A stretch of 64,000 bases of DNA from Leucobacter rhizosphaerae (lineage in GTDB: Bacteria; Actinomycetota; Actinomycetes; Actinomycetales; Microbacteriaceae): NCBI RefSeq assembly GCF_022919175.1, contig NZ_CP095043.1:868001-932000 (forward strand), read 5' to 3'. This document shows positions 8,120-52,225 of the stretch, piece by piece. Each line of letters opens with the position of its first letter. The first letter of the stretch is position 1. The position numbers were made by a program, and so were the translations under genes. A model generated the notes under the pieces. The model made no database searches, had not been told where the DNA came from, and was given only the letters and a program-made list of their open reading frames with translations.

Positions 8120-9436
8120 CTAGCGAGCCGGCCGTCGGAGGAGGTCCAGCAGGATCAGCGCGACGACCGCACCGATGAGCGTGCCGACGACGAGCCCCGG
8201 GGTGAGCGGCCGGGCGAGCAGCACGATCGCGCCGGCGCCCGCGGCGACGGCGATCCGGATCACCCGCTGGAACCGCTCGATCCACGCCCCGAACGCGCCT
8301 GTGCCGACCCCGTACCGGTCGCCGATCGTCCGCAGCCGATCCGCGCCCGCGCTCGTCATCGCCCGGAGCCGCGTCGGCAGCGGTGCGGGTCCCGTGCCCC
8401 AGCCGACAATCACGAGCAGCACCGCCACCGTGAACACCGCCGCGGACGTCTGCGAGAGCGGCGAGAGGATGGCCGAGAGGATCGCCGTGGCGGCATCGGC
8501 GGGCAGCGGCGTCACGGCCGGAACGACCTGCGCGGCGATCGCGAACCCCACGAGCAGCACGCCCATCGCGATGGCGAGACCGATCGCGGCTCCCATCAGC
8601 GCCCGCCGTCGCCGCCGTGCAACGATCACTCCGGCGGCGAGCAGCGCGAGCGCGATCCAGGGCAGCCACGGCCCGATCACGGTCGCCGCACCGTACCCCG
8701 CCTGGGCCCCGGTGAGCGAGACGTCCTCGGCGATCGGCAGCACCACGTCGACCGCCGGGATGCTCGCTGCGATCCCGAGCCCCTGTGCGACGAGCGCCTC
8801 CTGCACCGTGCCGATCACCGGCCCGAGCTGCAGGCCGAGCGAGCCGTCGGGAGCAATGGCCAGCGCGGCCCCCGGCTCGCCGCGCAGCGTCTGGTTGAGC
8901 TGCGAGTGGCTGAGGGTCAGCACCTCCCGCCACCCCGTGGAGAACGCTTCCGACGCCACGACGGACTCCACCGTCGAGCGCACGAGACCCGAGAGGCCGA
9001 GGTTGATCGGCGTCTCGAGCGCCCGCGCCGCGGAGACGGCCGTGCCCGGCGCCCCCAGATCCTCGATGCCGTCGATCAGTGCGGCGGTGAGAGCGGGAAG
9101 ATCCACCTCCCGCTCGATGATCCCGACGGCTTCCGCGGTGACGAAGCGCTGCACGGCCGGGTCGTCGGCGAGCGGCGCGAACACCCCCACGAAGCGGTCG
9201 GTGTCGGTCAGCAGGCCGTGCGCCCACGCCCCCACCGTGGCGACCGGTGCGAGCACGGCGCCGAGCACGATGAGCAACGCGGAGACCACGGCCCGCCAGC
9301 GGCGCCCGGTCGTCGCGGCGCGCGGCGGGTCGAGTCGGTCGCGGAGCTCGGCGTTCTCCCGTTCCATCCGGTCGAGCCTGGCCTGCAGGTCCGCAGCAGA
9401 CCCGGCGGCAGACCCAGCGGCAGATCCCGCGGTCAC
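8120..9436 (-). CDS. membrane protein of unknown function with N-terminal coiled coil
   Basis: A 438-residue integral membrane protein. The chosen GTG at 9436 overlaps the stop of the preceding holin-like gene (GTGA), giving a start VTAGSAAGSAAGSAADLQ. A short repeated AGSA segment is followed by a predicted coiled coil (LQARLDRMERENAELRDRL), then a first membrane helix, a long extracytoplasmic domain of about 190 residues (DTDRFVGVFAPLADDPAVQRF and following) and at least five further hydrophobic segments near the C-terminus. This layout resembles uncharacterised actinobacterial membrane proteins; no catalytic motif is evident. Function unknown. Confidence 0.75.
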   Translation of the reverse strand: MTAGSAAGSAAGSAADLQARLDRMERENAELRDRLDPPRAATTGRRWRAVVSALLIVLGAVLAPVATVGAWAHGLLTDTDRFVGVFAPLADDPAVQRFVTAEAVGIIEREVDLPALTAALIDGIEDLGAPGTAVSAARALETPINLGLSGLVRSTVESVVASEAFSTGWREVLTLSHSQLNQTLRGEPGAALAIAPDGSLGLQLGPVIGTVQEALVAQGLGIAASIPAVDVVLPIAEDVSLTGAQAGYGAATVIGPWLPWIALALLAAGVIVARRRRRALMGAAIGLAIAMGVLLVGFAIAAQVVPAVTPLPADAATAILSAILSPLSQTSAAVFTVAVLLVIVGWGTGPAPLPTRLRAMTSAGADRLRTIGDRYGVGTGAFGAWIERFQRVIRIAVAAGAGAIVLLARPLTPGLVVGTLIGAVVALILLDLLRRPAR

Positions 9437-9843
9437 GCCTGCGCCGACCCGAGCAGCTTGCGCGCAGCGCGGCGCTTCAGCCACTTGTCGATGACAAAGG
9501 CCATGAACAGCCACCCGCCGAGCGCGGTCACGAACCACACGATGATCGGCGCGAGGATCCACGCCTGCAGCCCGTGAATGGAGATGCCACCCGGGAACAG
9601 CGTCGCGACCCAGAGCGCGAGCAGCGTCGCGATCAGACCGACACCCCCGGCGAGCGGCGCCGCGTAGCGCTGCGCGAGATTCAGGACGAACGGGCCGAGG
9701 ATCGCGTGCGCGATCGTGAACACCGCGATCGCGACGAGGAATCCGCTCACGCTCACCTCGACCCCGGGCAGGCTCAGGTGCACGATGATCAGCGCGATCG
9801 CCGCGAGGACGAGCTGGGACAGAACTTGGAACAGCAGCCGCAC
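9433..9843 (-). CDS. small four-helix membrane protein, mycobacterial 4-TMS holin-like family
   Basis: A 136-residue protein with four hydrophobic helices and a basic C-terminal tail (KWLKRRAARK). Proteins of this shape are usually placed in the phage-holin superfamily IV (mycobacterial 4-TMS family), although most are chromosomal and not proven to act as holins. No phage genes surround it. It is translationally coupled to the membrane protein downstream (4-bp overlap) and lies about 70 bp after the AI-2E family gene. Confidence 0.72.
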   Translation of the reverse strand: MRLLFQVLSQLVLAAIALIIVHLSLPGVEVSVSGFLVAIAVFTIAHAILGPFVLNLAQRYAAPLAGGVGLIATLLALWVATLFPGGISIHGLQAWILAPIIVWFVTALGGWLFMAFVIDKWLKRRAARKLLGSAQA

Positions 9844-9914
9844 GGCAGCCCCCTCACGGTGTCGCGGGCACCCTCCGCTGGGGCCCCTGCGCTCAGGCTA
9901 CTGCACGGGGCGGG

Positions 9915-11102
9915 CTAGGCGGCAGGATCCGACGCGTGCGGACGTGCCCACTTCGCCGGGCGATTGGGGCCGTCCCACACCTGGATGATCCCCCAGCCCA
10001 CGGCTGCGATCGGCACCGCGAGCACCGCGCCGAGGATGCCGCTGAGCACCGTGCCGATGGTCAGAGCGAGCAGGATGACGAGCGCGTGCAGCTTGAGCGC
10101 CCGACCCATGAGCACCGGCTGCAGCAGGTTGCCCTCGAGCTGGTTCACGAGCACCACGACACCCACGACGAGCACCGCGCTCAGCGGGCCGTTCGCGACG
10201 AGGGCGACGAGCGCGGCGAGGATGCCCGCCACCGTCGCACCGACGAGCGGGATGAACGCGAGCACGAACACGAGCACGGCGAGCGGGAGCGCCAGCGGCA
10301 CCTGGAGGATCAGCAGGCCGATCCCGATGCCGACCGCGTCGACGGCGGCCACGGCGGCCGTGCCGCGGATGTACGACCCGAGGGTGGCGACCGTCTTGTC
10401 GCCGGCGCGACGTGCACGCGCCAGCCCCTCGCCGGTGAAGGGGCGGAGCATGAAGCGCCAGATCGTGGGCCCGTCCTTCAGGAAGAAGAACAGCACCACG
10501 ACCATCAGCACGAGCCCGGTCACGAAGCTGGTGATCGCCCCCACCCCGGCGAGCGCACCGGAGCCGAACTGCGAGCTGGTCAGGAAGTCGACGACCGTGT
10601 CCTGCCACTCCGCGATCTGCTCAGCGTCGGGCGCGAACGGCAGCGTCTTGACCCAGTCGATGACCTGGGCGAAGCCGTCCTGCGCCTGCGACGAGAGGTC
10701 TTCCCACTGATCGCGCACCGCCCACACGATCAGCCAGCCGATCCCCGTCAGGATCACGACGATCCCGAGCAGCACGGCGACCGTCGCGAGCGCCGGCGGC
10801 ACGTTGCGCGCCCGGAGCCAGGACATGACCGGCGCGAACGTGCTCGCGAGGATCAGGGCGAGCAGGATCGGGATCACGACCGTGCTCAGCGTGCGCATGC
10901 CCCACACGACGCCCGCGGTGAGGATCAGGACGATGATGATCTGCAGCGAGCGGGAAGCGAGCACGCCGAACCCGTCGCCCCAGGTGCGCCGCAGGCGGGA
11001 GGCCTCGGGTGCGGCGACCGCCTGCGCGACGGACCCCTCTCGCCGAGCCTCCCCCTGCGCGGCCTCGAGCACCTCACGTCGTACGCGTCGTCCGAACCAC
11101 AT
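9915..11102 (-). CDS. AI-2E family transporter (YdiK/PerM type)
   Basis: A 395-residue membrane protein of the AI-2E transporter family (PF01594). The ATG at 11102 has GGGAG 6 nt upstream and gives the start MWFGRRVRREVLEAAQGE, with a cytoplasmic N-terminal tail of about 50 residues. Family features are the first helix pair SLQIIIVLILTAGVVWGM and PILLALILASTFAPV, the ARNVPPALATV turn, and the C-terminal block FIPLVGATVAGILAALVAL plus QLEGNLLQPVLMGRALKLHALVILLAL. Only some family members export autoinducer-2; others act as ion antiporters or stress permeases, so the substrate is left open. Confidence 0.9.
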   Translation of the reverse strand: MWFGRRVRREVLEAAQGEARREGSVAQAVAAPEASRLRRTWGDGFGVLASRSLQIIIVLILTAGVVWGMRTLSTVVIPILLALILASTFAPVMSWLRARNVPPALATVAVLLGIVVILTGIGWLIVWAVRDQWEDLSSQAQDGFAQVIDWVKTLPFAPDAEQIAEWQDTVVDFLTSSQFGSGALAGVGAITSFVTGLVLMVVVLFFFLKDGPTIWRFMLRPFTGEGLARARRAGDKTVATLGSYIRGTAAVAAVDAVGIGIGLLILQVPLALPLAVLVFVLAFIPLVGATVAGILAALVALVANGPLSAVLVVGVVVLVNQLEGNLLQPVLMGRALKLHALVILLALTIGTVLSGILGAVLAVPIAAVGWGIIQVWDGPNRPAKWARPHASDPAA

Positions 11103-42121: not shown

Positions 42122-42162
42122 GCTGGGGTTGACCCAACTACCCGGACTTGAACCAAGAACAA
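42122..42162 (-). repeat. left degenerate copy of tRNA-Gln 3' end (attachment remnant)
   Basis: On the + strand GCTGGGG (42122-42128), a 10-bp insertion (TTGACCCAAC), then TACCCGGACTTGAACCAAGA and ACAA (42139-42162). The last 24 bases differ at two positions from the intact tRNA-Gln at 52160-52183 (minus-strand T-arm and acceptor side). It marks the left edge of the A+T-richer island. Confidence 0.75.
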
Positions 42163-42411
42163 CTCAATAGATCTAAGCCCACGGTCTACCCCCGTGCTTT
42201 AGGCCGAAAATCCGCGTAATTACAGGGTTTCTGGCTCCCTTAGTTTGCATCGAATATGCATTGACCCTTGGCAAAGAGTGACTTTCGGCGCAAAAAGCTG
42301 CTCAAGAAGTGACGCTCTAGGCGCTAACCCCAAGCCGCCGATCCGACCCGGGTTTGGTGCGCGTAGCCAGTCGCACGCGATGTACGAATCGGCGTGTTGG
42401 AGGTGATGATG
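42163..42411. other. intergenic stretch at the left edge of the island
   Basis: No gene recognised. It contains a CTAAGCCCACGG / CCGTGCTTTAG hairpin (42173-42203), which may be a further tRNA-like scrap, and the GGAGG ribosome site (42399-42403) of the following gene. Base composition is visibly more A/T-rich than the DNA to the left. Confidence 0.6.
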
Positions 42412-43365
42412 ATGTTGGATAGTGGCATGGGAAGTGATGCCGAAAGTCTGCGCGTTGCCAAACTGTTGCTTAGCGGTGCGCTTGATGCGTCGTTCGTTCC
42501 CATTCCGGAGGCGCAGACAGCGCAGGCGGATCTCCGCTCGAAGGATAGCGCGCACGTCGCCGAGGTCAAGAGGATCACTAGTGACTCGTTGCGCGAGCTA
42601 AGCAAGGCGACGGCGAAGCATGAGACGAGCCGAGACATACCGGAGCTGGCCCGACGCTGGCTAGTTCTAATCGACGCAGAGACCAACAGCGATTCGTTCC
42701 CGCCTATGCCAAATTTCGTAGAACCGAGGCCGACGGAGCGACTACAGCTCAAGGCGGCTGGCTTCTCCGTGCAATCGAAGGCCGAGCGAGAGGCGGAGTT
42801 CCGAGCTACCCATCTTGGCCCGCGCAAGCCCACGCCGCGAGTAAAGGGACTGATCGATGCGCTGCTGCCGTATCTGCGAATACTCGAAGAACACGGCGCT
42901 ACTGAGATGTCCCGGGGCTGGCAGCCATTGGTTAAGACTGACGAGGTCAGCTTGGCGCAGCGGGCGATTTTGAGCGCCGTTGGCAGCGGGATGGTGTCCT
43001 CGTTCGTTCCCGAGTCAGCACCAGCTGGTGTGGACATCTGTCTCAGCTGGGGCTACCACCGGACCAGTCGCCCCGACACGATCGCGAGCCGCGTTCAAAC
43101 GTGGCTTGACAGCGACTTGTCAGCGAATCTGAGGGAGAGCCTGGCGCGGGCGCCGGAGGGCACCCGTCGTCATGCTGTGTTGGTTTTCGATGCGGTTAGT
43201 GAACCGGAATTCGAGTATATGGCCTCGGTCGGCACGGTGCCGAGTATCGCGCTAATCTTTCCCGACGAGGTTGACGTGCTCTGGACGGTCTTCAGAGAAC
43301 GGGCGCTTTCCTACGATGCGGAGCATGACTGGCGATCGCATGTGATCCGCTCTATTGCTGTGTGA
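42412..43365 (+). CDS. hypothetical protein of the island
   Basis: A 317-residue protein, unrecognised. ATG at 42412 has GGAGG 8 nt upstream; two in-frame ATGs and a GTG lie just before it. The N-terminal third is helical and charged (VAEVKRITSDSLRELSKATA), the middle has KGLIDALLPYLRILEEHGA, and the C-terminal third looks alpha/beta (HAVLVFDAVSEPEF, SIALIFPDEVDVLWTVFRER). No signal peptide or membrane helix. Codon use is less G/C-biased than in flanking core genes, which suggests acquisition. It is separated from the restriction genes by an IS3 remnant, so a joint function is uncertain. Confidence 0.7.
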   Translation: MLDSGMGSDAESLRVAKLLLSGALDASFVPIPEAQTAQADLRSKDSAHVAEVKRITSDSLRELSKATAKHETSRDIPELARRWLVLIDAETNSDSFPPMPNFVEPRPTERLQLKAAGFSVQSKAEREAEFRATHLGPRKPTPRVKGLIDALLPYLRILEEHGATEMSRGWQPLVKTDEVSLAQRAILSAVGSGMVSSFVPESAPAGVDICLSWGYHRTSRPDTIASRVQTWLDSDLSANLRESLARAPEGTRRHAVLVFDAVSEPEFEYMASVGTVPSIALIFPDEVDVLWTVFRERALSYDAEHDWRSHVIRSIAV

Positions 43366-43689: not shown

Positions 43690-44372
43690 TCGGTACGATA
43701 GGTCAGGATGTCAGCTGGAACGAAATGTGCCGAGACCACGGCTGGTGGTCCGTGTTCGGGAAGAGGAAAGGACGTCGGCCGAAACCGCCGGTGCATGTTG
43801 ATCTAGTGCAGTGCGAGTTCACCGCGGTAAGCCCGAACAAATTGTGCCTCTCGGACATCACGGAGAATTGGACCGAGGAAGGCAAGCTGTATCGGCGCGC
43901 GGTGAAAAACGTGGTCTCGAACCGGGTGGTGAGGTACTCGATCAACTCGCGGATGAAGTCGACACTCGCGGTAAGCGCGCTGAACAATGCGGTCATGCGG
44001 CGCGGAGACACAGCCGGATGTGTGTTGCATACCGATAGAGGGTCGCAATTTCGGAGCAGAAAGCTCCGCTGCACTCTCGACCAACATGGCATAGCCGGGT
44101 CGATGGGCAGAGTCGGTGCCGAGGGTGACAACGCTGCAATGGAATCGTTCTTCAGTATGGTGCATAAGAATGTTCTGAATCGTCGCAGCTGGGCCAATCC
44201 TGACGAACTCCGTATCGCGATCGTGACCTGGAAAGAGCGAACCTATCATCGACGTCGTCGACAGGCTCGTTTTGGGGGTTTGAAGCAGATCGAGTACGAG
44301 GCCATCATGAATTAGAAGATCGCACTCGCTGCCTAACCAATCTGTCACCTAAACGTGCAGCCGACATAGCAC
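43690..44372 (+). mobile_element. truncated IS3-family insertion (orfB remnant)
   Basis: The frame from ATG 43725 encodes 196 residues of an IS3-type integrase core: LCLSDITENWTEEGKLY (first Asp), VLHTDRGSQFRSRK (second Asp), and DNAAMESFFSMVHKNVL (Glu), so the DDE triad is still present. The N-terminal HTH part and orfA are missing. Translation is cut by TAG after YEAIMN, although the old tail (KIALAA, stop) continues in frame to TAA at 44333. TGTCACCTAAACGTGCAG (44342-44359) resembles the right end of these elements. No left end was found; it is immobile. Confidence 0.85.
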
Positions 44373-44426
44373 TGGTGTGCGGACGTCAGTGGCGGGCAGC
44401 GTAAAACGCCGAAGCTGAGGCCCAAG

Positions 44427-44436
44427 CCCCCCCCCC
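44427..44436 (+). repeat. C10 homopolymer upstream of the restriction gene
   Basis: Ten consecutive C residues, 53 bp before the -10-like box of the MmeI-like gene. Tracts of this length are prone to slippage; whether it changes promoter strength here is unknown. Confidence 0.85.
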
Positions 44437-44488
44437 GGATGCGCTGAACACTCAGTCGCTGCCTGTGTAGGGAACTACGGTCGACGAC

Positions 44489-44494
44489 TATCGT
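44489..44494 (+). promoter_or_regulatory. -10 box of a likely leaderless restriction-methylase transcript
   Basis: TATCGT (TANNNT type) ends 7 nt before GTG 44502. No ribosome site precedes that codon, and this spacing fits a leaderless mRNA. No convincing -35 hexamer. Confidence 0.45.
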
Positions 44495-44501
44495 GGTACC
44501 C

Positions 44502-47309
44502 GTGTCTAAGTCTTTGTCGATGAATGAGATTCGAACTCGCGCCGCGCAGTTTATCCGCGATTGGCAAGATGAGCCCGGTGACGAGCGGCAGCAAGCACAG
44601 TCATTCGTTCGAGACTTGCTCGGAGTGTACGGGATCACTCAGACCCGCGCTGCCTTCTATGAGAAGCGTGTGAAGCGTTCCTCGACCGGTTCCCGTGGAT
44701 ACATCGACGCCCTGATCCCTGGTCTCGCGCTGATCGAGATGAAGTCGGCAGGTAACGATCTTGTCGTGGCTGAGAAACAAGCGCTCGACTATATTGACGA
44801 TCTCCCCGATCCTGAGGTTCCCCGCTGGGTTCTTACCAGCGACTTCCACCGGCTCCGACTGCTCGACCTACACGCCGACAACGACGGTGTCCAGGAGTTC
44901 ACGCTGACCCAGCTGAGGGATCACGCCGACAGACTGGCCTTTCTCGCCGGATACGGTGAACGCACCTTCGGATCGAAGGCCCAAGAAGCTGCATCGATCA
45001 GGGCCGCGAAGCTGATGGCCTCACTGTACGAGGCTCTTGAGGAGTCGGGGTACGACGATCACGAAGCGTCGGTATTCTTGGTGCGCACGCTCTTCGCGCT
45101 CTACGCCGATGACGCCGGCGTTTGGGATCGCGATCTGTTCCTCGAGTTCCTCGAAACGCGTACCGCCCAAGACGGCTCCGATCTCGGCCCGCAGCTATCG
45201 TTGCTGTACCAGGTGATGGGCAGGGACCCCAGCCGACGGCAATCGAACCTCGACGAGCTGATCGCCCGCTTCCCCTACGTCAACGGCGGCATCTTCGAGG
45301 AATCGGTATCAATCCCCTCATTCGACACTGCTATGCGCGATCGGCTGATCGCAGCGGCAATGTTCAACTGGTCAGCGATCTCGCCTGCCATCTTCGGCAG
45401 TCTCTTCCAAGCCGTCAAAGATAAGACAGCCCGCCGCGAGCTCGGAGAGCATTACACCACCGAAACCAACATCATGAAGGTCATCGGCCCGATGTTCCTT
45501 GATGAGCTGCGACAGCGGTTCATGGACGGCTACCACGACACAGCCAAGCTCAAAAAGCTGCGCGTGGACATGGGACAGATGCGATTCCTCGACCCAGCGT
45601 GCGGCTGTGGCAACTTTCTCGTCGTCGGATACAGACAGATGCGCGCGCTCGATCTCGAAATCCTGTTACGTGTCCAGCAGCTATCCGGCGACACAGCTCG
45701 CACGATGTTCTTCACCGAGGAACATCTTTCCGTCCGGCTATCGAGCTTCCACGGGATTGAGCTCGAGGAATGGCCAGCGCAGATCGCCGCCACCGCCCTC
45801 CACCTGGTGGAGCACCAGGCCAACCAAGCGATGGAACTGGCCCTCGGCACCGCGCCAGACTCTCTCCCACTAAACAAGATCCGAAGCATCCAGATCGACA
45901 ACGCGCTGCGCACGGACTGGGGCGATGTCGTGGAACCCACGGAACATCTATACATCATGGGAAATCCACCCTTCCTCGGCCACGCAACCCGTTCGCTTGA
46001 GCAAGCCCAGGAACTACGGGACGTGTGGCGTCGCAAGGACATCGGTCGGCTCGACTACGTCACCGGCTGGTACGCCAAGTCACTCGAACTGCTTAATCGG
46101 CCGGGGTATGCGGGAGAGTTCGCTTTCGTTTCCACGAACTCAATCGCGCAGGGCGAGCCAGTGCCGGCACTGTTCGGCCCTGTCTTCGCTGCCGCGTGGC
46201 GTGTCAAGTTTGCGCACCGCACGTTTGCCTGGACGAGCGAAGCGCCCGGCGCCGCCGCGGTGCACTGCTCTGTCATCGGATTCGACCGAACACCGAAGAA
46301 GCGCGCTCGACTGTTTGAGTATTCTGGCAACATAAAGGGTGAACCCGTCGAGCTGCCGGTTATCGAACAAATTAACGGATACTTGGTGGACGGGCCTAAT
46401 GTACTCATCGAGCAACGTCGTGCACCGTTAGCTCCGGAACTCCCGCCCATGGTGTTCGGCAACATGGCCCGCGACGACGGAAACCTCCTCATCGAGGCGG
46501 AGGACTACAACGAAGTCGTCGCAGACCCAGTAGCCGCAAAATACATCCGACCGTTTGTGGGTGCACGGCAACTAATCCATAACGAGCCGCGCTGGTGCCT
46601 CTGGCTTGTCGATTTGGAACCTAGTGACATCGCCCGCTCGCCAGTCTTACGGCGCCGCCTGGACGCCGTAAGACAATTCCGAGCGGACTCCACCGCAGAG
46701 TCCACTCGGCGGATGGCCGAGACACCGCACCTGTTCGGTCAGCGCTCGCAACCCGACACCCCGTACGTGTGCGTGCCGCGTCATGCTAGTGAGACCCGAC
46801 GCTACCTTCCGACTGCCGTTTTCCCGCCCGAAGTGATCTGCGGTGATGCGAACTTCAAAGCTGATGATCCAGATGGCATCGCGTTCGCGACCATTTCCTC
46901 TTCGGCCTTCATCGCCTGGCAAAAGACGGTGGGCGGTCGAATCAAGTCGGACCTGCGGTTCTCGAACACGCTGACCTGGAACACGTTTCCCCTGCCGCCA
47001 ATGACCGACAAGGAGCGGACTGCTATCATCGCCGGCGGACAGGCTATATTGCATGCGCGAGCACTACACCCTGAACGCTCATTGGCAGACCACTACAACC
47101 CCCTCGCGATGTCCCCGGAACTCGTGCGAGCACACCGCGAACTCGACTCCGCAGTCGACCAATGCTTGGGATTAAGAGGTACCGCCACCGACGAAAGTCG
47201 ACTGCGCGCACTGTTCTCCAACTACGCCAAGCTCACGACAACCAACGAACTCCCGATCGCCACCAAATCATCTCGCCGCAGGAATGTTGAATCGGGCGCC
47301 ACCAAATGA
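44502..47309 (+). CDS. MmeI-like (type IIL) restriction-methylation enzyme
   Basis: A 935-residue single-chain restriction/DNA methyltransferase of the MmeI family. N-terminal nuclease: Asp69 and Glu79-x-Lys81 in YIDALIPGLALIEMK. A helical spacer follows, ending in GEHYTTETNIMKVIGPMFLDEL. The gamma-class methylase core has motif I FLDPACGCGNF (about 361-371) and motif IV NPPF (about 487-490), consistent with N6-adenine methylation. The target-recognition domain includes CVPRHASETRRYLP and VICGDANFKADD, and the C-terminal helices end the protein. Length is typical of MmeI (about 919). The GTG 44502 start is inferred from the TATCGT box; ATG 44520 is an alternative. The stop overlaps the next gene (ATGA). 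Confidence 0.9.
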   Translation: MSKSLSMNEIRTRAAQFIRDWQDEPGDERQQAQSFVRDLLGVYGITQTRAAFYEKRVKRSSTGSRGYIDALIPGLALIEMKSAGNDLVVAEKQALDYIDDLPDPEVPRWVLTSDFHRLRLLDLHADNDGVQEFTLTQLRDHADRLAFLAGYGERTFGSKAQEAASIRAAKLMASLYEALEESGYDDHEASVFLVRTLFALYADDAGVWDRDLFLEFLETRTAQDGSDLGPQLSLLYQVMGRDPSRRQSNLDELIARFPYVNGGIFEESVSIPSFDTAMRDRLIAAAMFNWSAISPAIFGSLFQAVKDKTARRELGEHYTTETNIMKVIGPMFLDELRQRFMDGYHDTAKLKKLRVDMGQMRFLDPACGCGNFLVVGYRQMRALDLEILLRVQQLSGDTARTMFFTEEHLSVRLSSFHGIELEEWPAQIAATALHLVEHQANQAMELALGTAPDSLPLNKIRSIQIDNALRTDWGDVVEPTEHLYIMGNPPFLGHATRSLEQAQELRDVWRRKDIGRLDYVTGWYAKSLELLNRPGYAGEFAFVSTNSIAQGEPVPALFGPVFAAAWRVKFAHRTFAWTSEAPGAAAVHCSVIGFDRTPKKRARLFEYSGNIKGEPVELPVIEQINGYLVDGPNVLIEQRRAPLAPELPPMVFGNMARDDGNLLIEAEDYNEVVADPVAAKYIRPFVGARQLIHNEPRWCLWLVDLEPSDIARSPVLRRRLDAVRQFRADSTAESTRRMAETPHLFGQRSQPDTPYVCVPRHASETRRYLPTAVFPPEVICGDANFKADDPDGIAFATISSSAFIAWQKTVGGRIKSDLRFSNTLTWNTFPLPPMTDKERTAIIAGGQAILHARALHPERSLADHYNPLAMSPELVRAHRELDSAVDQCLGLRGTATDESRLRALFSNYAKLTTTNELPIATKSSRRRNVESGATK

Positions 47310-48820
47310 CCGACAAAAGCTGGCCGTACCCGACGATCCCCGTTCGCGGCAGTCTCACGATGGATAGCGACGGCAAGAATCAGCGGTGCGCGTGCGGAAA
47401 TGGTTCGTACTCGCCGACTTGGCATCACGCTGATTTAACCGGCCGACTGACATTTACATCGTCGGGATCATCCGGTCCTAACGAGTTCGTGGTGTGCCCA
47501 TCCTGCGGCCGGGTATACAGTAACGCTGATCTCCTCCACTCCGGCGACGGGACTGTAGCGGCCGTTACTCGATACGACGTGAACGCCCGAGTCTTCATGA
47601 CAGCGCGTGCGCAGTATATTAGGGAGGCGAACACCGCCAATCCCAGCCGCACTGCGCATACCAGGAGAGACGTAGCCAACTTCGAAGACTCCTGCTATCA
47701 GGTCGCGGTGCACGCTCAGGATTCCGCCATCGGTCGAGTCGGCGTCGTCCTTAAGGCGATTGCTCATGCTGCAGACAGAGCCGGTGACTACGAGTGCATC
47801 GACATCGCTGTGGCCTACGCGTCGGCGGAGGGAGTTCGACTGCTCGAAAACGCACTAGCCGGTCCGAGTTGGGCCGAAGCCAGGAAGAGATTCCTTGTTA
47901 GTTTGGACTTCGGGTTCACGCAGCCGAAGGCGCTCACGCGTCTCACCGAGATCAGCAGAGCTGAAGTTCGAGTTCCCAATGGACGAGAGGTGCTGAGGTC
48001 AGCTGCCCTACAACCACAAACCGCGTTCCACGCGAAGGTCTACAGCTTCGGCGTCGAAGAGTATCCGCACCTGCGCGCGTTAGTAGTCGGATCGGCAAAC
48101 TTAACCGCAAGCGCGCTCTCGACGGGCGCCGAGGTGGTCACATCTCAGACCTGGAAGTCTTACGCAACCGCTTGGAACGACTTAAGACGCGCACAACCTG
48201 TCCTCGACTGGTTCGAGGATACCTGGGAGAACGCGGACGCGATCGATGACGTGTTCGATGAGTACCGACAGAAGCGCCGCGCGCTAAAGATGCCCCCGCG
48301 AATCCAGGAGGAAAGGACCCCAGCAACGCGCCGTTATTTAGCTTCCCTAGAAGACCATGAGATCTCCGGAGATCTCTCCGTCCAACTCGCGGCAGCCAAG
48401 GAGCTGTGGATCCATGCTTCGTCAATGATTCGCAACCGGGGTGATCTGCCGGGAAGCCAGATCAACACCCCTCGAGGGACTCGTGTCTTCTTCGGCTTCC
48501 CTTCCGAGAAGCGCTCAAGAAACACCACCCTGGGATCGATCAATCTGCGCGTCACCGGCCACGCCTATCACGACCGCACCCTACGCTTCGGCGACAACGG
48601 TATGGATGTCATCAATCTGCCTATCCCCGAACAGAATGGCGTCGAGACTTACCTAGGTACGTTCTTGCTTTTTTCTCGCGACTCGCCTGAGGATGAAAAT
48701 CCTCCCTACTACACCCTGACCGTCACGGACGCGGCAGGAATCGATGCGAAGAAGGCATCCGCTGCCAACAGCGTTGACCTAACGATGAATGGCGGTAGAG
48801 AGTATGGCCTCTTGTTCTGA
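47306..48820 (+). CDS. zinc-ribbon plus phospholipase-D-type nuclease, coupled to the methylase
   Basis: A 504-residue protein with four possible zinc ligands (Cys28, Cys30, Cys64, Cys67: RCACG and CPSCGRVYS) followed by a PLD-superfamily domain. A single HKD-type site is visible: FHAKVYSFG (His242, Lys244) and VVGSANLTASAL (Asn265). Such single-motif members (Nuc, BfiI, NgoFVII relatives) usually dimerise and cleave DNA. The C-terminal 200 residues form an unrecognised, probably beta-rich domain. ATG at 47306 overlaps the methylase stop, so the two are made together. It may be a second nuclease or an effector of the restriction module; not proven. Confidence 0.82.
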   Translation: MTDKSWPYPTIPVRGSLTMDSDGKNQRCACGNGSYSPTWHHADLTGRLTFTSSGSSGPNEFVVCPSCGRVYSNADLLHSGDGTVAAVTRYDVNARVFMTARAQYIREANTANPSRTAHTRRDVANFEDSCYQVAVHAQDSAIGRVGVVLKAIAHAADRAGDYECIDIAVAYASAEGVRLLENALAGPSWAEARKRFLVSLDFGFTQPKALTRLTEISRAEVRVPNGREVLRSAALQPQTAFHAKVYSFGVEEYPHLRALVVGSANLTASALSTGAEVVTSQTWKSYATAWNDLRRAQPVLDWFEDTWENADAIDDVFDEYRQKRRALKMPPRIQEERTPATRRYLASLEDHEISGDLSVQLAAAKELWIHASSMIRNRGDLPGSQINTPRGTRVFFGFPSEKRSRNTTLGSINLRVTGHAYHDRTLRFGDNGMDVINLPIPEQNGVETYLGTFLLFSRDSPEDENPPYYTLTVTDAAGIDAKKASAANSVDLTMNGGREYGLLF

Positions 48821-49052
48821 TCGACGGTAGACCTCGCCCCAAGAACCAGCAGGTTAAAGGGATACATGGAGTAGAAAAGAGGGGCCTCGGCGCCCAGATC
48901 AACGTTCGACTGCATGGTCGGAATGTCCAACCAATGGAACCGCGAGTTGTTCCCACGCTGCAGTGAGGACGTCCAGGTAGGCCTGTGGACACTCGGAATC
49001 AAGGCGGTGGTGCGTGAATCCCGCTCGGCGGGTATCGGTTGCGGATCGCGGG
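48821..49052. other. gene-free stretch of the island's right part
   Basis: No gene recognised on either strand between the PLD gene and the IS481 stub. A/T-rich like the rest of the island; probably remnants of lost genes. Confidence 0.55.
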
Positions 49053-49243: not shown

Positions 49244-49274
49244 GCTGGGATACCTGGACTCGAACCAAGAACAA
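49244..49274 (-). repeat. second copy of tRNA-Gln 3' end (attachment remnant)
   Basis: A 31-bp segment beginning GCTGGGATACCTGGACTCGA and ending in ACAA is identical to 52153-52183 of the tRNA-Gln region except one base (A for G at the seventh position). The rest of the tRNA is absent. It forms the right border of the island and lies in the same orientation as the other copies. Confidence 0.88.
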
Positions 49275-52145: not shown

Positions 52146-52153
52146 TGATCTCG

Positions 52154-52225
52154 CTGGGGTACCTGGACTCGAACCAAGAACAAAGGTACCAGAAACCTCC
52201 GTGTTGCCAATTACACCATACCCCA
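52154..52225 (-). tRNA. tRNA-Gln (anticodon CTG)
   Basis: A 72-nt cloverleaf. Acceptor TGGGGTA pairs with TACCCCA and discriminator G; the anticodon loop is TTTCTGGT with CTG; the T-arm is CTTGGTTCGAGTCCAGG. CCA is not encoded. Partial copies of its 3' half occur at 49.2 kb and 42.1 kb in the same orientation, the pattern left by elements integrating at a tRNA 3' end. Confidence 0.95.

Follow-up and report, generated by a model that had tools for sequence, protein, structure and literature searches.

An MmeI-type restriction-methylase gene coupled to a PLD-B3 gene in Leucobacter rhizosphaerae: a candidate two-nuclease cassette

Introduction

Restriction enzymes of the MmeI type (type IIL) have nuclease, methylase and target recognition on one chain, and they mark one strand only. 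BfiI, a type IIS enzyme, is built from a PLD nuclease domain and a B3 DNA-recognition domain and is partnered by two separate methylases. R.NgoAVII and R.CglI are also PLD-B3 R-proteins and lie in loci with a DNA methylase; BfiI and NgoAVII recognise specific sequences through their B3 domains, according to the passages of PMC4267653 that deal with them. The subject here is a cassette of two adjoining genes from Leucobacter rhizosphaerae, at positions 44502-48820 of a stretch of 64,000 nucleotides (the window; contig NZ_CP095043.1, positions 868,001 to 932,000), in which a gene for an MmeI-type enzyme (gene 1) runs into a gene for a PLD-B3 protein (gene 2). Both halves belong to known kinds, and the combination was found nowhere described in the literature searched, which was open-licence and had most subscription papers outside it. 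The recurrence of a PLD-B3 partner suggests that the single-chain enzymes can be extended to two-nuclease defences.

The two genes and their closest described relatives

Gene 1 is like MmeI throughout, in its five domains, its nuclease and methylase motifs and its target recognition domain (TRD) positions. Its features are:

44502-47309, plus strand: gene 1, type IIL restriction-methylase (MmeI type), 935 amino acids (aa), GTG start
44706-44744, plus strand: PD-(D/E)xK nuclease motif D69-x9-E-M-K81, intact, equivalents of MmeI D70/E80/K82
45537-46316, plus strand: DNA methyltransferase domain (PF20473, E=4e-81) with motif I FLDPACGCGNF and NPPF
46389-47000, plus strand: TRD (PF20466, E=6.2e-67)

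The domains MmeI_N, MmeI_hel, MmeI_Mtase, MmeI_TRD and MmeI_C each score above the Pfam cut-off, the PADLOC model REase_MTase_IIG (PDLC03598) matches residues 5-914 with 1057.7 bits, and the solved structure of MmeI (PDB 5hr4) matches residues 4-915 with E=4.7e-219. With nuclease, methylase and TRD joined in one chain, and D..ExK, motif I and NPPF all intact, the protein belongs to the type IIL enzymes. Its stop codon is the TGA at 47307-47309, and the reading frame is open also from a GTG at 44493. The TRD carries the specificity residues F642, M645, R751, D773, A774, R810, K806 and D808 (MmeI numbering), from which the published MmeI residue-to-base code, as set out in sections of PMC4833311, predicts the recognition site 5'-NAGRAG-3'. 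Gene 1 thus differs from MmeI, which reads TCCRAC, and differs further in being coupled to a second, probable nuclease gene.

The features of that second gene, in part taken from a structural model, are:

47306-48820, plus strand: gene 2, ribbon-PLD-B3 protein, 504 aa, ATG start overlapping the gene 1 TGA (ATGA)
47306-47659, plus strand: N-terminal four-Cys ribbon (C28, C30, C64, C67), a putative zinc ribbon, optional
47696-48295, plus strand: PLD nuclease domain, residues 131-330, with one half-site H242-x-K244 / S263-x-N265 / E276
48392-48817, plus strand: B3-like DNA-recognition domain, residues 363-504, from the model, best solved match BfiI
48419-48502, plus strand: presumed N-arm loop of B3, residues 372-399, mean entropy 1.27 bits, arm assigned from strand order
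48584-48646, plus strand: presumed C-arm loop of B3, residues 427-447, mean entropy 1.25 bits, arm likewise presumed

Judged from sequence and model, gene 2 has the architecture of a PLD nuclease with a B3 reader, the layout of the BfiI and NgoAVII R-proteins, with an optional ribbon in front. The PLD fold is supported by an AlphaFold model (mean pLDDT 90) together with a structure search, and the features of those R-proteins, a PLD domain with one HxK half-site and a C-terminal B3 domain, are both present. The set H242-x-K244, S263-x-N265 and E276 is invariant in 69 sequences, and the canonical Asp is absent. As in BfiI, the single half-site would have to pair. The likeness to BfiI lies in the domain order and the folds, whereas the identity in structural alignments is 12-14%, the two domains take up another relative position in the model (rmsd, root-mean-square deviation, 9-12 over both), a ribbon stands at the N-terminus and the partner is a self-sufficient type IIL enzyme.

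The ribbon region is modelled with a pLDDT of about 68-88 (blocks of 10 residues, up to residue 110), and its four Cys are kept in the six ribbon-bearing sequences, that of the window and five more. As an essential part it can be ruled out: it is absent from the shorter relatives and from the Salinibacterium locus L011 (loci other than the window are cited by our own numbers), although the MmeI-type enzyme there is 82% identical to that of the window. A length that leaves room for a ribbon (466-513 aa) is found in 21 of the 96 listed homologues. On Microbacteriaceae plasmids the ribbon is also encoded on its own: at 6998-7333 of L034, a Microbacterium plasmid, it overlaps an MmeI gene, at 6998-7333 of L033 it follows a truncated one, and on Agreia and Cnuibacter plasmids (L035-L037) it adjoins glutaredoxin-type genes.

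These results bear on a first-pass annotation made from the letters of the window. Its description of gene 1 as a full-length type IIL enzyme is borne out by the five domains, the 5hr4 match and the intact motifs, as is the overlap of the two reading frames. The PLD-superfamily assignment with a single HKD site stands as to fold and single site, the missing Asp making the motif non-canonical. The four Cys are real and form the ribbon, but gene 2 has further Cys outside it, and the annotation missed the B3 domain and the optional nature of the ribbon, which it had written into the definition of the module. Its view that the system matches no named type gives way to the BfiI / R.NgoAVII architecture of gene 2.

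Other identities fit less well. The closest PADLOC match is ZacB (E=2.6e-7, covering part of the PLD domain), a name under which a literature search returned unrelated papers only. None of the five PADLOC matches of gene 2 up to E=1 is DrmC, the PLD protein of DISARM. The DrmC gene comes after drmB and most DrmC proteins have an N-terminal four-helix bundle, as described in part of PMC12458937, but the island has no drmB, and the model of gene 2 begins with the ribbon and passes to the PLD domain with no DrmC-like N-terminal fold. DrmC matches were likewise lacking in the relatives L012 and L014 (up to 0.01) and L038, L039, L040, L073 and L076 (up to 0.001); the distant L120 gave two weak ones, the best with E=1.9e-4. 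DISARM itself was rejected, as neither drmA nor drmB was found, nor any helicase or DUF1998 gene among the scanned open reading frames (ORFs) of the island. SauUSI, a type IV PLD-helicase, was set aside because gene 2 has 504 aa without a helicase domain.

Partners of the PLD-B3 family

The pairing was counted over 16 distinct full-length relatives with readable neighbours, the window included, which is not a census: the homologue listing holds 96 proteins, most without readable context. A DNA methyltransferase adjoins the PLD-B3 gene in all 16. Seven partners are of the MmeI type and span two phyla (the window, Leucobacter L010, Salinibacterium L011, the Methylobacterium/Methylorubrum plasmids L039, L071 and L072, and Methylosinus L040); the two genes overlap or nearly overlap in every one of these. 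The other nine are another type IIG family (L012, L013, L014, L016), type IIG or N6 methylases (L073, L075), DISARM-type methylases (L038, L076) and a small N6/N4 methylase (L120). Such variety rules out an accessory specific to MmeI. The genes lie on the same strand in the seven MmeI cases and in L038, diverge in L012, L014, L075 and L076, and converge in L013, L016, L073 and L120.

In L038 the PLD gene is placed between the methylase and drmA (drmD-methylase-PLD-...-drmA-DUF1998 gene), and in L076 it stands beside two DrmMI-type methylases. L120, the lowest-scoring full-length member (106 bits), meets a stand-alone 301-aa N6/N4 methylase tail to tail (8822-10779); the pair sits right behind thiC and resembles a plain two-gene type II system.

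A nuclease motif D-x(8-13)-ExK is present in 11 of the 16 partners, namely six of the MmeI type, the four of the L012 family and L075. A canonical motif was not found in L038, L040, L073 (E-x-E), L120 and L076, where the sole pattern match, AEQK, looks like chance; the MmeI-type partner in L040 has Q, E and G at positions 70/80/82. The partners in L040, L038, L076 and L120 would therefore need another nuclease, and proteins of the gene 2 type may be sometimes the sole nuclease beside a methylase and sometimes, as in the window, a second one.

Several groups were left out of the 16. These are PLD proteins of about 1000 aa (L017-L030 except L026, L032 and most of L044-L070), probably mostly PLD-helicase fusions, with the helicase part not checked singly; weaker stand-alone or partial relatives below 75 bits (L026, L031, L077, L078, L079, L080, L081, L082, L083) and further weak matches without context; matches inside the helicase proteins H8, H11, H12, H15 and H16; H4, which duplicates the record of the Methylosinus plasmid; the ribbon-only plasmid matches L033-L037; and the fragments L015 (186 aa) and L115. 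Methylase queries matched nothing in the 17 kb of L015. A methylase is adjacent or near in four of the nine weak relatives (L031, Eco57I-type; L081, D12; L083, N6_N4; L078, DISARM-type, two genes away); L077, L079, L082 and L026, with one neighbour each Pfam-scanned, had none there, and the neighbours of L080 lay outside the scan. A methylase neighbourhood is thus common to other PLD nucleases but more regular in the full-length PLD-B3 family.

From the MmeI side the pairing is optional. An MmeI-like gene (E <= 1e-30) occurs in 59 of 396 Micrococcales genomes, and when the best 30 loci among these matches were read, the window included, neither gene 2 nor the ribbon followed the MmeI gene in any of the other 29 (the downstream sequence read being 1.3 kb or more in 28 and 0.7 kb in L089). 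Of the 60 listed among 260 MmeI-bearing plasmid records, three have a PLD-B3 gene (L039, L071, L072) and two the ribbon only (L033, L034). Nine of the 29 Micrococcales relatives (L101, L103-L105, L108-L112) are without the D..ExK residues, though they align over the methylase and TRD. In Microbacterium sp. YJN-G an apparent 505-aa ribbon-PLD-B3 homologue (P0003) lies on a 3.48-Mb contig, and the plasmid (L034) has MmeI and the ribbon alone.

A Micrococcales draw of the same size and kind as the MmeI survey (396) gave a full-length PLD relative in the own genome only, and at E <= 1e-20 the own genome was again the only one with a relative among 398 of Microbacteriaceae, and one genome had a relative among 398 of the phylum of L031. 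Phage records and viral contigs, the latter by pattern search, yielded no relative.

The counts can be set against several expectations of the first-pass annotation. The adjacency that it proposed to look for is conserved, the two genes standing together in L010, L011, L039, L071 and L072 as in the window, and homologues mostly without the methylase, which it named as telling against a module, are not what the readable loci show, where 16 of 16 full-length relatives adjoin a DNA methyltransferase. Its statement that MmeI-type enzymes normally work alone agrees, for gene 2, with the 29 unpaired Micrococcales loci. That the coupled gene adds a second nuclease or effector is upheld in so far as the pair recurs and gene 2 is built like a second nuclease; the coupling is, however, not specific to MmeI.

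Some neighbourhoods hold more than the pair. In L040 (8949-12195) a DEAD-type helicase and a GIY-YIG-type (T5orf172) gene stand behind the methylase and PLD-B3 genes, perhaps a four-gene version. A DUF4238 gene diverges from the PLD-B3 gene (PLD at 9995) in L013 (8793-9734) and L016 (8794-9732, the L016 copy being 87% identical); L016 has, still further upstream, a PDC-S39 candidate. L115, from a Paracoccus plasmid (6001-10236), is a C-terminal PLD-B3 remnant with an IIG-type methylase gene 0.85 kb away and an IS1380 element and a sul2 gene adjacent.

A probable second restriction nuclease and the competing explanations

With moderate confidence, we take the cassette to be a mobile restriction-modification unit of one methylase and two nucleases, in which gene 2 encodes a further restriction endonuclease, of the BfiI type, from which methylation by its partner protects the host DNA. 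The two PLD domains of a gene 2 pair would come together to form one active site, as in BfiI, and the B3 domain would find a short DNA sequence, so that DNA whose site the partner had left unmethylated would be cut. Gene 1 would supply the protective N6-methyladenine (m6A), predicted at the A in position 5 of NAGRAG, and would also cut by itself. With two nucleases, we propose, a phage that escapes one would meet the other. For the ribbon, a role as a tether of gene 2, to gene 1 or to DNA, is a lead only.

The architecture is that of known site-specific endonucleases, and the H, K, S, N and E residues are invariant, as described above. A need of each nuclease for a protecting methylase would account for the methyltransferase beside every full-length relative with readable neighbours, L120 offers the plain two-gene arrangement, and the partners named above that show no nuclease motif would have to rely on another nuclease. 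Window positions 43785-48854, which hold most of an IS3 fragment and both genes, form a block common to Leucobacter: they align with L010 at 82.6% DNA identity, and the match stops 34 bases past the end of gene 2. The comparison with L010 also shows purifying selection on both genes, with non-synonymous (dN) and synonymous (dS) divergences of 0.041 and 0.557 for gene 1 (dN/dS ~0.07) and 0.131 and 0.632 for gene 2 (dN/dS ~0.21); against L011 dS is saturated and uninformative.

Three points weigh against a second endonuclease of this kind, whose mechanism is inferred from sequence and model. Marking of one strand would leave unmarked daughter sites after replication, so that a simple cutter would attack the host unless two sites were needed. 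Methylase adjacency is common among the weaker PLD relatives too and is by itself not special to the family. Finally, the predicted sites of the MmeI partners differ, and yet unrelated partner families go with much the same B3 loops. By the PMC4833311 code, in the sections already drawn upon, the site is NAGRAG for the window, L010 and L011 and NCGGAG for L039, L071 and L072, and in the closest enzyme without an adjoining gene 2, an 86% identical one from the YJN-G plasmid, the residue pair is that for C at position 6. A GNAG core (G at positions 3 and 6) common to all MmeI partners was considered and found not significant, the same two residue pairs being present in 13 of the 29 MmeI enzymes without a PLD gene.

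The loops themselves were compared in pairs of relatives with different partners. L039 (MmeI partner) and L073 (unrelated partner) are 62% identical in the PLD domain, 76% in B3 and 88%/88% in the B3 loops, and the values for L012 (IIG) and L038 (DISARM) are 35%, 52% and 62%/86%. A B3 reader matched site by site to its methylase would require the methylases of L039/L073, and those of L012/L038, to share a site. The pattern suggests either that partner families with the same target have been swapped or that the reader recognises something constant.

The second of these options leads to a tenable, if rather unlikely, alternative, in which B3 would read a fixed signal whatever the site of the partner, either a short sequence or a mark on the DNA (m6A, for example, or a modified phage base); the partner would tag or license the DNA, and one and the same nuclease would serve type IIL, type IIG and DISARM systems. 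Besides the excess of B3 over PLD identity in these two pairs, it draws on the presumed arms, which at 1.27 and 1.25 bits are better conserved than the PLD domain (1.71 bits on average over the 69 sequences; HKD region 1.48), and on the B3 identity of L039/L073, which exceeds that of the same-partner pair L039/L071 (71%). The comparisons are few, however, and whole B3 is no better conserved than PLD (also 1.71 bits). No excess is seen between the window and L012 (MmeI and IIG partners; PLD 51%, B3 50%), and only a small one between the window and L038 (31%, 37%). Among pairs that both have MmeI partners, window/L011 (62%, 59%) and window/L039 (33%, 30%) show none, window/L040 (25%, 31%) a small one and L039/L071 (85% in PLD) the reverse. 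Partner families that share a site would give the same pattern, and sequence specificity is, in the account of PMC4267653 cited above, a property of B3 in both BfiI and NgoAVII. The natural exchanges of partner (MmeI-type enzymes in two phyla, an unrelated type IIG family, DISARM methylases) are a place to ask whether a restriction nuclease reads a sequence or a mark. A wider and speculative idea, which we think rather unlikely, is that B3-guided PLD nucleases are an interchangeable effector of many methylation systems, a constant head reading a fixed signal while partners swap among type IIL, type IIG and DISARM, so that stand-alone enzymes such as MmeI would become two-layer defences.

A role of gene 2 in the service of gene 1 is more doubtful: gene 1 would recruit it, perhaps via the ribbon, and it would degrade the ends made by the MmeI-type enzyme with no sequence choice of its own. 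The overlapping frames of the two genes would fit such a role, as would the separate ribbon gene behind or overlapping MmeI in L033 and L034. End degradation, on the other hand, needs no B3 domain; shorter relatives are without the ribbon, and many of them diverge from, or converge on, the gene of an unrelated enzyme; related MmeI genes exist without gene 2; and the ribbon is also carried by the plasmids L035-L037, where no MmeI is annotated in the 11.7-14.3 kb fetched (annotation incomplete). It is very improbable that the two genes came together by chance, as a nuclease and a restriction enzyme that work independently within a defence island, for although in L010 AbiU and the PLD gene are 4 kb apart and PDC-S54 and a type I-E CRISPR-Cas system stand beside the PLD gene in L011 and L072, this would hardly give adjacency to methylases of several families in 16 of 16 cases, (near-)overlapping genes in seven MmeI-type cases and a pair common to Leucobacter as a block.

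Mobility and the surrounding island

The mobile character proposed for the two-nuclease cassette concerns the following features:

42132-42162, plus strand: direct repeat resembling tRNA-Gln, on the left side of the cassette, with only 74% likeness to the reference copy
43725-44315, plus strand: IS3-family transposase fragment (C-terminal rve part), mostly common to the Leucobacter L010 block
49244-49274, plus strand: direct repeat resembling tRNA-Gln, on the right side of the cassette, with 97% identity to the tRNA copy
52153-52225, minus strand: intact tRNA-Gln (ctg)

Within the 7.1-kb stretch that the two repeats bound, the scanned ORFs included no integrase, the IS3 transposase fragment aside. 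The same stretch holds a 323-aa ORF at 42394-43365 that matched nothing in Pfam, PADLOC or NCBIfam (E up to 1). The genes next to the island are ordered differently in the two related genomes that were examined for an empty site at tRNA-Gln. The two copies of the 3' part of tRNA-Gln on either side of the cassette suggest an old integration.

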